64,000 nt of DNA from NCBI RefSeq assembly GCF_003814915.1, contig NZ_RKQK01000001.1, positions 124,001 to 188,000 of the forward strand, in the 5' to 3' direction. The notes under the pieces were generated by a model that was given only the letters and a program-made list of their open reading frames with translations, made no database searches and was not told the origin of the DNA. The translations under genes and the position numbers were made by a program. Origin of the DNA: Pacificibacter maritimus. Its GTDB lineage: Bacteria > Pseudomonadota > Alphaproteobacteria > Rhodobacterales > Rhodobacteraceae. Within the stretch, counting starts at the first letter, position 1. Each line of letters begins with the position of its first letter. This document shows positions 2,407-5,340 of this stretch, piece after piece.

Positions 2407-2721
2407 ATGACTAAACTTTATGGGATCAAAGCCTGCGATACATGCCGTAAAGCGGCTAAAACTCTGGCTGTCGACATCTCAGATATTCGCGCAAACCCAT
2501 TGCCTGCGTCAGATTTAAAACGGTTCTATGCGCAATTTGGCGACGCTTTGGTCAATACGCGCTCCACGACATGGCGGGGCCTATCCGAGGCGGAACGCGC
2601 CCGTCCGCCATTGGACTTATTATCTGAACACCCGACTTTGATGAAGCGGCCCGTTATTGAAAAAGACGGCGCACTTTTCTTAGGGTGGGGCAAGGATGTT
2701 CAGGCCGAATTGGGCGTCTAA
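2407..2721 (+). CDS. ArsC/Spx/YffB-family thioredoxin-fold protein
   Basis: A 104-residue protein with the ArsC/Spx fold: strand LYGI, then Cys10-Asp-Thr-Cys13 followed by RKA, and a late KRPVIE segment with the conserved cis-proline region. Most YffB-like members have one N-terminal Cys; the CxxC here suggests redox activity. Arsenate reduction is not established, because single-gene members away from ars operons usually are not arsenate reductases. The ATG at 2407 is preferred over the longer frame from 2377 because it follows AAGGAC and begins exactly at the first beta strand. It overlaps the end of the bufferin operon tail to tail by four bases. Confidence 0.8.
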   Translation: MTKLYGIKACDTCRKAAKTLAVDISDIRANPLPASDLKRFYAQFGDALVNTRSTTWRGLSEAERARPPLDLLSEHPTLMKRPVIEKDGALFLGWGKDVQAELGV

Positions 2722-3233
2722 ACCCTTTTGCCTATGCGCTTTTTAACGATGGCATCCAGTGATACTGGGCCAGCACCAAGCCCGAGCAAAGTTAATAAAC
2801 CGAGCACCCAATAGGCGCGTTGATCCAAAATCAGCGCGTCTGAAGCGCGGTCAAACCATGCACCAATCGTGGCCGCATCCGCGCCATGGCCCACAATGTC
2901 AGTCACGCTTTGCACCACGATAAATCCGATCATCCCCAAGGCTGCGGGGCGCGTGGCGAGCCCGATGATCAACAAGGCTGGCAAGATGAATTCTGCATAT
3001 GTGCCTGCCATAATGACCAGCCAATGAAACGCGCCAAAGGCGGAAACATCATAGCCTGCGGCCTCCATTTGGCGCGGGAAAATTTGTGCGTAAGCCCCAA
3101 GGGAAGGGGTGAAGACTCCGTCCAATTTGGTCAAAGCTGAGGCCCAAAAATAGCGTGCCAAAACCGCTGCAAATACGAACCGCGCTAACAGTGGAAGGTG
3201 GCGCGCAGTAAAACGATCTAAGCGATCAAACAT
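2718..3233 (-). CDS. bufD: DoxX-family membrane protein of the bufferin operon
   Basis: A 171-residue protein with four predicted membrane helices and the DoxX layout: an N-terminal helix followed by a segment with FWASALTKL, then paired Gly-rich helices. It is the last gene of a four-gene minus-strand operon and overlaps the preceding DUF2063 gene by eight bases, so translation is coupled. DoxX proteins commonly accompany DUF2282/DUF692/DUF2063 genes in proteobacteria, and this one sits in the position called bufD. Its role is not settled; quinone-linked redox chemistry or help with export of the modified peptide are both possible. Confidence 0.85.
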   Translation of the reverse strand: MFDRLDRFTARHLPLLARFVFAAVLARYFWASALTKLDGVFTPSLGAYAQIFPRQMEAAGYDVSAFGAFHWLVIMAGTYAEFILPALLIIGLATRPAALGMIGFIVVQSVTDIVGHGADAATIGAWFDRASDALILDQRAYWVLGLLTLLGLGAGPVSLDAIVKKRIGKRV

Positions 3234-3966
3234 GGTCGTACTCCAATTTTGTGATGGCGGCCCCCGAGATGAGCGTGCTGATAAATGTGGTTAAATCTAG
3301 GCTGTCTGGCGCGACTTCGATGGCCTCGCCCAAGGGCATTCCTGCTTGCAGGGCTTCGATGATTTTGGCCGTGCCACTTGGAAATGCTGTGGCTATAGGA
3401 TCTAGATCAGGTCGCGTGATGATGACATCTTGTGCCTGCGCGGTCGGTTTGGGGCCGCCCAGTGCCGCCCTACGGATGTCGCAGGCTGGAAACTTAAACC
3501 TGAGGACTAACATCGCGGGGGCGAACTGTACGCGCGCTGAAAATACATTCGGGTTTTCAAAGCTTTCAGCAGCTATGGGGGCGGCGTCCGCTGCATGATA
3601 ACTGCGCCGCAACGCGTATTCGAGGGTGGCGACTTCAGCCAAATAGGGCAGGCCGGCGGCGGGTTGGAATTGCGCAATAAACTGGGCAAATTCTGCGCCA
3701 TACAGTGCCAAAATGGGTGACCGAGGTGGGGTCTTACGAATGTAGATATCTGTCATCGCCGCGAAAAAATCTTTGCCGACAAGCGATTCTACTGCAGGAA
3801 ACCCATCTTGCATCGCCGCTTTCAGGCCAACCATGATATTATTTTGGTAAACCGCGAACCGCTTTGGGGCAGCGCCCCCATCGGGACCGACGATGCCCTG
3901 TGGAACGGGTTTATTGGGATCCATCGCAGCCGAGATGAATTGTTTTTGGCTTATCGTCTGTGTCAT
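3226..3966 (-). CDS. bufC: DUF2063 (BufC) partner of the DUF692 enzyme
   Basis: A 246-residue cytoplasmic protein of the DUF2063 family, often labelled a putative DNA-binding domain. The N-terminal region has the family's [12 protein letters not shown] pattern, and the [17 protein letters not shown] helix near the middle is typical. In known MNIO peptide systems this partner binds the precursor and presents it to the DUF692 enzyme. Its ATG shares an ATGA overlap with the stop codon of the DUF692 gene, so I reject the longer frame reaching 4026. This coupling, and the neighbours, support a role in peptide maturation rather than in transcription. Confidence 0.88.
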
Positions 3967-4811
3967 GCGGAAACTGGTGTCAAAAGATCGGCTGCGCGTT
4001 GGGCTTCGGCTGTCAAAACAGACCATTCAGGCACATCTGTATCCCATTCAATCAAGGTCGGTTTGGGGCCGCTTTTGGCAATTGTATGCTGATAAAGCGC
4101 CCAGACAGGGTCGGCAACTTCGCGTCCGTGGCTGTCAATCAACAGTGGTGCGCCGTGATCGTCGATATCCTCATCATGTCCACCCAGATGGATTTCGCCG
4201 ACAGCTGCAAGCGGGAAGGCATCTATATAAGCGCGCGCATCCATTTGTAGATTTGTCGCAGAGATAAAGACATTGTTTACATCCAGCAGCAATCCGCAAC
4301 CTGTGCGCTTTGTCACCTCGGCTAGGAAGTCAACTTCGCTCAGAGTGCTTTCTGCAAACGCCAAATAGCTGGAGGGGTTTTCCAGCAACATTTGTCGCCC
4401 AAGCGTGTTTTGAACCTCGTCGATGTGATCGCAAACTGTTCTCAGCGTTGTCTCGGTATAGGGCAGGGGCAAAAGGTCATTATAAAAACCCATATCATGC
4501 GTGGACCAAGCAAGGTGTTCGGAAAAAGACGCAGGCTGCAGCCAGTCATTGAGATACTTCAACCGTCCTAGGTGGTCTGGATCAAGGCGGGTTTCTCCGC
4601 CGATCGACAGGCCAACACCGTGAACAGAGAGGGGAAAATGGTCAGATAAGGCGCGTAGTTGCGCCAAGGGGCGTCCGCCTGCGCCCATGTAATTTTCGGC
4701 ATGGATTTCAAGCCATGTGACAGGGGCTGCACCTGCCAAAATATCGGAAAAGTGCTGCGGTTTATAGCCCACCCCCACAGAATTTGGCAGTGATTGTTCG
4801 ATATGTGTCAT
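3963..4811 (-). CDS. bufB: DUF692 multinuclear iron oxidative enzyme (MNIO), bufferin maturase
   Basis: A 282-residue TIM-barrel protein of the DUF692/MNIO family. Visible family landmarks are VGYKPQH near the start, [11 protein letters not shown], the LLLDVNNVF strand, EIHLGGH and a C-terminal EWDTDVPEW, which supply His, Asp and Glu iron ligands. Enzymes of this family oxidise cysteine-containing precursors with O2; bufferin members convert Cys to thiooxazole rings. I place the start at 4811, where an AAGGGGGGAA ribosome site lies just upstream. The longer frame to 4901 would run into the stop region of bufA. It follows bufA after a hairpin and is translationally coupled to bufC. Confidence 0.92.
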
Positions 4812-4843
4812 TGCTTCCCCCCTTGTCTTTTTGATCAGAAAGT

Positions 4844-4870
4844 GAGCTGCCGCAACGGGGGCGGCAGCTC
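4844..4870 (-). terminator. Intercistronic hairpin between bufA and bufB
   Basis: A perfect 10-bp, GC-rich stem (4861-4870 with 4844-4853, seven-base loop) lies between the stop codon of bufA and the start of bufB. It is not followed by a long T tract on the minus strand, only ACTTTCTG. It therefore looks like a partial terminator or a 3' stabiliser that would give more precursor mRNA than enzyme mRNA, a common arrangement in peptide operons. Confidence 0.6.
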
Positions 4871-4878
4871 TGGCGTGC

Positions 4879-5184
4879 TTAGGACGCCATGTCGCGATCA
4901 AGTGGTTCCAACGACCCTTTGCGCATCATATCGTCCATGCCTGCTGGCAATTCCATTGTTTCACATGTGCCCGCTGGGACCAACGACCAAGCGTTGCCTT
5001 GGTAATCAACTGTCGAGGTGCCTGCGCAAGTTGTGCCTGGACCTGCTGCACAATCATTTTCACCTGCAAGTGAAACGCCGTAGCATTTTTCGGTTGCGCC
5101 TTCGGCTGCAGCCGTTGTTGCGTGAGCAGACAAAGCAGCAGCAAGAGCGCCAGCGAGTGCGATTGATTTTGTGTGTTTAGACAT
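4879..5184 (-). CDS. bufA: Bufferin precursor peptide (DUF2282 family)
   Basis: A 101-residue DUF2282 protein: an N-terminal Sec-type signal peptide of about 27 residues ending near TTAAA, then a core with four cysteines (34, 45, 53, 74) in the family pattern [17 protein letters not shown] and AGTCE, plus the VDYQGNAW segment. In the studied bufferins two core cysteines are oxidised by the MNIO enzyme and the secreted product binds copper. A C-terminal tail after Cys74 is acidic and rich in Met (five), which could add metal binding. The start follows GGGAGATACCTC. It heads the bufA-bufB-bufC-bufD operon. The size and neighbours leave little doubt. Confidence 0.92.
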
Positions 5185-5340
5185 GAGGTATCTCCCAAAG
5201 TTTCATGCGTTTGCGCCAGATTTGGCGGTAAAGGCATGATGGGCGACAAGGGTTGTAACAGACCAGTCACAGGGTCGTGTCCCACGTGTGTGTCAGAAAA
5301 TGAAACAAACGAAAATGTGTATTGCTTGTGAATGGTCATG

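Follow-up and report, generated by a model that had tools for sequence, protein, structure and literature searches.

The locus described here raises the question of whether a bufferin precursor with a methionine-rich C-terminal tail carries a second copper site in that tail, and of what controls the operon that encodes it. It lies within a 64,000-nucleotide stretch of the Pacificibacter maritimus genome (contig NZ_RKQK01000001.1, positions 124,001 to 188,000; "the window"), and all positions below follow the numbering of this whole stretch. An earlier note on the window had read four minus-strand genes at 2718-5184, in the order bufA-B-C-DoxX, as a compact operon for a copper-binding modified peptide, and both the coordinates and the Pfam families agree with it (Table 1). 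We find that, judged by the families it encodes, the locus is a Buf1 (DUF2282) bufferin cluster of ordinary type, and that a control site shared upstream of bufA may be the newer lead. Comparisons draw on samples of the genus, family and class around Pacificibacter, with the P. maritimus genome counted in all three.

The bufferin identity of the operon is upheld by curated models, catalytic residues, gene order, and a copper-induced Caulobacter operon with the same order. All four Pfam matches exceed their cut-offs. BufB also passes the NCBIfam model NF050167 MNIO_BufB (378.7 bits, cut-off 310), and the HvfB, ApyH, MbnB and ChrH models all score it below their cut-offs. Assignment to an Oxazolin/Buf_EGKCG cluster was considered and rejected: the HvfB model gives BufB 232.5 bits against a cut-off of 360, and the precursor is a DUF2282 protein, not one with EGKCG repeats. 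The closest solved structure to BufB by sequence is 3BWW (E=5.8e-41), followed by 8hci_D (a DUF692 family protein) and MbnB chains. The corresponding VcMbnB residues are reported as His55, His91, Glu135, Asp165, Asn168, His194, Asp209, His211 and Glu238, together with the catalytic Asp240 (PMC8888699). Alignment to 7dz9_A, whose numbering matches that of PMC8888699, maps nine of these ten onto BufB H99, E144, D177, N180, H208, D226, H228, E255 and D257, and the tenth counterpart, H64, was placed by motif and by the 3BWW alignment. Conservation across 146 relatives is close to complete for all ten, each being kept in 145 or 146, with a gap as the sole exception (one of 147 loci had no usable BufB for the tree). 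By these alignments, BufB retains the published MNIO iron ligands.

The genes are tightly packed, and the overlaps that the earlier note had placed among the last three are present in the sequence: bufB and bufC share ATGA, and bufC and doxX overlap by eight bases (ATGTTTGA). Among the 15 genus loci that could be read across all four genes (a sixteenth is cut off), the ATGA recurs in all and an eight-base overlap from ATG to stop in 11, which makes neither of them particular to this genome. For bufB we chose the ATG at 4811, which has a purine-rich stretch 5' of it; the list of open reading frames gave a longer version starting at TTG. There is no overlap between bufA and bufB, which are separated by a 67-bp gap holding a hairpin.

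The four core cysteines attributed to the precursor are found at C34, C45, C53 and C74, and are invariant in 64 aligned relatives that were chosen by similarity. Buf1 precursors are described as having four conserved cysteines, with modifications on the central ones and a disulphide joining the outer pair (PMC12452194). On this analogy C45 and C53 are expected to become thiooxazoles and C34 and C74 to form a disulphide; the chemistry, copper binding and export of this particular peptide are likewise inferred from characterized relatives. The BufA N-terminus is hydrophobic and ends in AAA-E, as read by eye without a predictor. As a separate observation, the second cysteine stands in an NGC rather than an NDC context in 12 of 16 genus BufA proteins (loci L151-L162).

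Clusters of this kind have been described before. The earlier note had called the pathway known in a few bacteria, which is too narrow a view given the thousands of such sequences, Buf1 and Buf2, that PMC12452194 reports. The bufferin 1 cluster of Caulobacter vibrioides, CC3254-CC3257 (CCNA_03363-03366), contains these four families in identical order (PMC3511200, PMC8224329), and its four genes are reported to respond to copper with log2 values of 4.35-6.31 in minimal medium (about 20- to 80-fold) and 1.40-4.27 in rich medium (PMC8224329). The gig operons of Cupriavidus metallidurans and Legionella pneumophila contain the same families and respond to gold and copper (PMC5413113), but differ from this locus in lineage and regulation. 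In fontiphorin and other thiooxazole products of the MNIO-PME1 type, an MNIO enzyme with a partner installs the thiooxazole, and DUF2282 is one of three precursor categories given there (PMC13097082). Other bufferins are reported to show a band near 305 nm (PMC13097082, PMC12452194). Methanobactin MbnABC also relies on an MNIO enzyme with iron ligands matching those of BufB. However, its precursor is described as lacking a signal peptide (PMC12452194), its role is copper uptake rather than protection, and the MbnB model gives BufB 49.8 bits against a cut-off of 325.

The P. maritimus genome has a single PF10048 gene and a single MNIO gene. Of 198 family genomes sampled, 140 have PF10048 (six of the 140, G062, G083, G102, G120, G130 and G195, were left out of later counts), as do 65 of 190 class genomes, and a BufA relative is present in 16 of 20 genus genomes. 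By identity the closest named match is in Pacificibacter marinus (85%), although near-identical records may be missing. The order bufA-B-C holds in all 104 family loci read, 95 of which also have a doxX match. The full order thrS-bufABCD-arsC' is found in at least 64 of 104 loci from the family, 14 of 16 from the genus and 65 of 80 from the named set (L197-L276), which was picked by similarity to this BufA and overlaps the family set in species. These counts are lower bounds, some stretches ending short of the flanking genes. Taken at face value, they suggest a chromosomal cluster that is stable and inherited vertically. Here the ArsC/Spx-like gene occupies 2386-2721 on the plus strand, convergent to doxX, an arrangement kept in most relatives read.

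The tail beyond the last cysteine is methionine-rich and acidic, as the earlier note had described: its 27 residues include Met77, 83, 86, 87 and 99, and seven aspartates or glutamates against three lysines or arginines. Five methionines in 27 residues would arise by chance with P=0.001 at an assumed methionine frequency of 3%, and with P=0.03 at the 6.8% of family tails. We compared 133 tails from 131 family loci (the core pattern missed L070 and L121, and L028 and L099 have two copies each), 16 genus tails, and 67 class tails (nine class matches were left out, and the pattern missed L313 and L316 of 69 loci). Methionine makes up 13.7% of the tail versus 0.3% of the cysteine core in the genus, 6.8% versus 0.33% in the family and 3.7% versus 0.5% in the class; the median tail length is 27 residues in the family and 15 in the class. 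Four or five methionines occur in 14 of 16 genus tails, and high tail methionine content is a feature of the genus, whose members nevertheless represent few independent lineages.

The earlier note suggested that these residues add a second copper site. On this proposal, M83-xx-M86-M87 with M77 and M99 would form a selected Cu(I) thioether site beside the thiooxazole site. Tail methionine is strongly enriched over the core in family and genus, numbers stay at four to five in most genus tails despite shifted positions, and MxxMM resembles copper methionine motifs. However, the spacing that homologues were expected to share is not conserved: family tails have methionine at M77 in 49 of 133 cases but at M83, M86, M87 and M99 in just 3, 6, 3 and 2, and the commonest methionine columns of the family, 82 (63/133) and 89 (76/133), are glycine and lysine here. 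MxxMM itself is present in two of 16 genus, one of 133 family and one of 67 class tails. Nor is there much sign that methionine number is maintained by compensation, since six of seven Fisher tests on site pairs gave P values of 0.24 to 1. The seventh, M77 against columns 82-83, has P=0.007 (uncorrected) in the direction of compensation, but is confounded by tails lacking columns 82-83, and the comparison of 45 sister pairs, 35 of which differ in methionine, was not significant (P=0.16). As stated, the second copper site is unsupported, and we regard it as improbable; at most, the drifting methionines would form an auxiliary, loosely placed thioether set.

By column counts, the methionine-rich end is a variable lineage feature, and the stronger conserved signal is a motif without methionine, R88-x-G90-S-L-E-x-L95-x-R97-D98-(L/I)-P100. 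Among the 133 family tails its residues are kept in 118 (R88), 126 (G90), 118 (S91), 128 (L92), 105 (E93), 118 (L95), 125 (R97), 125 (D98) and 123 (P100) cases, and R88, G90, L95, R97 and D98 are invariant in the 64 sequences aligned. Every one of the 16 genus tails carries the motif, as do 115 of 133 family tails, yet it is present in only eight of 67 class tails, one of these eight belonging to the same family. It most likely serves folding, recognition or partner contact. That the tail works mainly in recognition or docking, whether for BufBC, for export or for handing over copper, with GSL..L.RD.P as the part that matters and the methionines incidental, seems to us an evenly balanced proposition: the conservation of the motif within the family favors it, whereas preliminary results in PMC12452194 place the signal peptide among the determinants of BufBC recognition. 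We found no report of methionine-rich bufferin tails in the literature, as far as titles and abstract openings go, which does not prove absence from print, and the words 'methionine' and 'Met-rich' do not occur in the main text of PMC12452194.

In most family regions, a 33-bp double inverted repeat, TNACR-N4-CGTGA-NN-CACR-N4-YGTGA-N-TGG, lies upstream of bufA by about 110-120 bp; its two inverted repeats are spaced 15 bp, and a -10-like YTANNNT follows some 20 bp after its end. Of 199 upstream regions, 185 remained once made distinct. A weight matrix for the element scores more than 10 bits in 134 of these 185 and in none of 185 shuffled ones; the positives comprise 75 of 103 regions from the family, 55 of 66 from the named set and four of 16 from the genus. 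The reverse complement exceeds 10 bits in 79 of the 185 because the element is near-palindromic. Since the matrix was built on these same upstream regions, further ones were checked. A strict pattern allowing at most one mismatch matched in 125 of 394 family genomes, with three matches in all for a backward control, and 54 of the 57 matches with known bufA coordinates sit 100-450 bp 5' of the bufA core (in 53 genomes). Twenty matches hand-picked from genomes outside the first family sample were all on the same strand upstream of bufA; one shares its sequence with a named matrix locus, which leaves 19 of 19 truly held out. With a looser pattern there were 85 matches, spread over 72 of 198 genomes (backward control, nine); 62 of them lie upstream of bufA, in 58 genomes, and 23 elsewhere. 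At class level two loci reach 10 bits, L193 (28.0 bits, of the same family) and L311 (13.9 bits). Within the P. maritimus genome the bufA site scores 34.9 bits and the next best 10.9; a search with up to three mismatches returned 10 forward and 13 reverse matches versus nine and seven for the backward control, and no other convincing site was found, including in front of its own exported MsrB gene. On these counts the element appears nearly bufA-specific across Rhodobacteraceae. Again, titles and abstract openings yielded no report of it, short of proof that none is in print. Apart from the element, the presumed bufA 5' leader holds a short CGCC...GGCG hairpin (5214-5227, minus strand), seen in nearly all aligned genus upstream regions.

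All 23 distinct match regions away from bufA were read, and eight of them scored at least 19. One, in L092 (genome G063), is a full-scoring copy of 35.9 bits situated in the bufA-bufB gap, 3' of a terminator-like hairpin. The other seven (L388, L389, L392, L383, L341, L342 and L347) precede genes for an L,D-transpeptidase, a YHS protein, a methionine-rich exported protein, what we take from its sequence to be a response regulator, two exported MsrA proteins and one exported MsrB. With NCBIfam the transpeptidase falls below the cut-offs, the YHS protein lies above and the methionine-rich protein has no match; Pfam gave no match for partial sequences of these three, and the exported MsrB matches PF01641. 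An msr regulon was considered and rejected: of the 29 exported-msrA loci that could be scored, the source locus alone exceeds 10 bits and two exceed 5 bits, and none of 27 loci of the cytosolic type is above 10 bits. The exported set comprised 30 loci from 129 matching genomes, one without the motif, and the second positive genome is not among the 30. Because exported-msrA loci almost all lack the element, as does the exported MsrB gene of P. maritimus, the msr pairing is not general. The SigF regulon of Caulobacter is also reported to join bufferins with an MsrPQ-like system (PMC8224329).

Could the element instead belong to thrS, or form an RNA leader with structure, and so not be bound by a transcription factor of the buf operon? 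In favor of this, most loci have it between thrS and bufA, and it is composed of inverted repeats. Against this, a terminator-like hairpin after thrS stands before the element, as seen by eye (the hairpin scan does not list it), a copy lies between bufA and bufB instead in one genome, and others precede other exported-protein genes. The pairing positions 24 and 29 read A-C in 12 of 134 sites and G-T in 48, which is no clean covariation, and the element would fall outside the expected transcript, being upstream of the -10-like box. We judge these alternatives unlikely. The placement of the element about 20 bp before the -10-like box is that of an activator site, and the operon would be driven by a promoter with such a nearly bufA-specific site upstream. 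The Caulobacter cluster is under SigF and NrsF control from a promoter GTAACC-N16-CGAA (PMC3511200), unlike the conserved element here. NrsF (PF06532) has no match in the P. maritimus genome, which is 99.94% complete, and a Caulobacter control was positive; without NrsF, another regulator probably replaces SigF/NrsF in controlling this operon.

About half of the relatives have a hairpin of this kind between bufA and bufB, though its sequence is not conserved: perfect stems of at least seven pairs occur in the gap in 116 of 200 (eight of 16 in the genus; the sets making up the 200 overlap in species) versus seven of 200 shuffled gaps. A T run follows the stem in 24 of 200, too few for a plain terminator, and the hairpin is likely an attenuator or an RNA stabilizer. 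Together with the downstream ATGA coupling it suggests that more precursor than enzyme is made.

The whole is very probably a standard Buf1 bufferin operon that acts through cysteine modification, export and copper chelation, with a nearly bufA-specific activator site and a precursor level tuned by the hairpin. Several results weigh against this picture. The HvfC model gives BufC 50.8 bits where 142 are needed and the HvfX model gives DoxX 22.1 where 80 are needed, both models having been made for a different precursor class. The AlphaFold model of BufA from the 64-sequence alignment has a mean predicted local distance difference test score (pLDDT) of 50.2, too poor for use or structure search, and thus lends no structural support to the core or the tail. 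In addition, 51 of the 185 upstream regions fall short of 10 bits, among them 12 of the 16 from the genus itself, which have a similar block with the second repeat re-spaced. If the standard reading holds, BufB with BufC would oxidize C45 and C53 of BufA to thiooxazoles in the cytoplasm, after which the modified precursor would leave via Sec. The disulphide between C34 and C74 would form following export, and the mature peptide would bind surplus copper in the periplasm, with DoxX assisting in some way. The promoter would be activated through the upstream site, and the hairpin 3' of bufA would allow precursor to be made in excess of enzyme.

Table 1. Features of the bufferin locus in the window.
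Feature	Position	Strand	Description and basis
doxX (bufD)	2718..3233	-	DoxX-family membrane protein; PF07681, E=6.3e-8
bufC	3226..3966	-	DUF2063 partner protein; PF09836, E=3.5e-23
bufB	3963..4811	-	MNIO (DUF692) bufferin maturase, 282 aa; PF05114 (MbnB_TglH_ChrH), E=1.7e-104
Hairpin	4844..4870	-	10 perfect pairs in the bufA-bufB gap; likely attenuator or RNA stabilizer
bufA	4879..5184	-	Buf1 (DUF2282) bufferin precursor, 101 aa; PF10048, E=3.2e-25, 88.3 bits (cut-off 22.4)
BufA C-terminal tail	4882..4962	-	Residues 75-101; Met77/83/86/87/99 and R88-x-G-S-L-E-x-L-x-R-D motif; counted by column in 133 tails of the family and 16 of the genus
BufA core	4963..5085	-	C34, C45, C53, C74; positions read, roles by Buf1 homology
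BufA signal peptide	5104..5184	-	Residues 1-27, probable Sec signal, read from sequence; putative cleavage after AAA
-10-like hexamer	5236..5242	-	Weak; aligned upstream positions 58-64 enriched for YTANNNT, CCATCAT here a poor match
Double inverted repeat	5262..5296	-	Upstream of bufA; weight matrix with 35-column core, 34.9 bits, best site of the window

The kind of cluster was already known; what is added here is the description of the tail across the family and the upstream element. Tentatively, and with more doubt than confidence, we can picture the bufferins of Rhodobacteraceae as a vertically inherited sub-branch, set between thrS and an ArsC-like gene, in which an undescribed activator, responsive to copper and devoted almost wholly to bufA, took the place of SigF/NrsF and acts on the 33-bp double inverted repeat, and in which the motif of a lineage-specific C-terminal extension, with help from the drifting methionines, hands over or holds copper. 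As a family of metal-binding modified peptides the bufferins rank with the largest, although few of them have been studied, and Rhodobacteraceae are abundant among marine bacteria. Within the tail, the residues that deserve first attention are R-x-GSL-xx-L-x-RD-x-P rather than the methionine spacing. A defined element with close to a single target in each genome should allow the sensor used in this lineage to be found directly by DNA pull-down.

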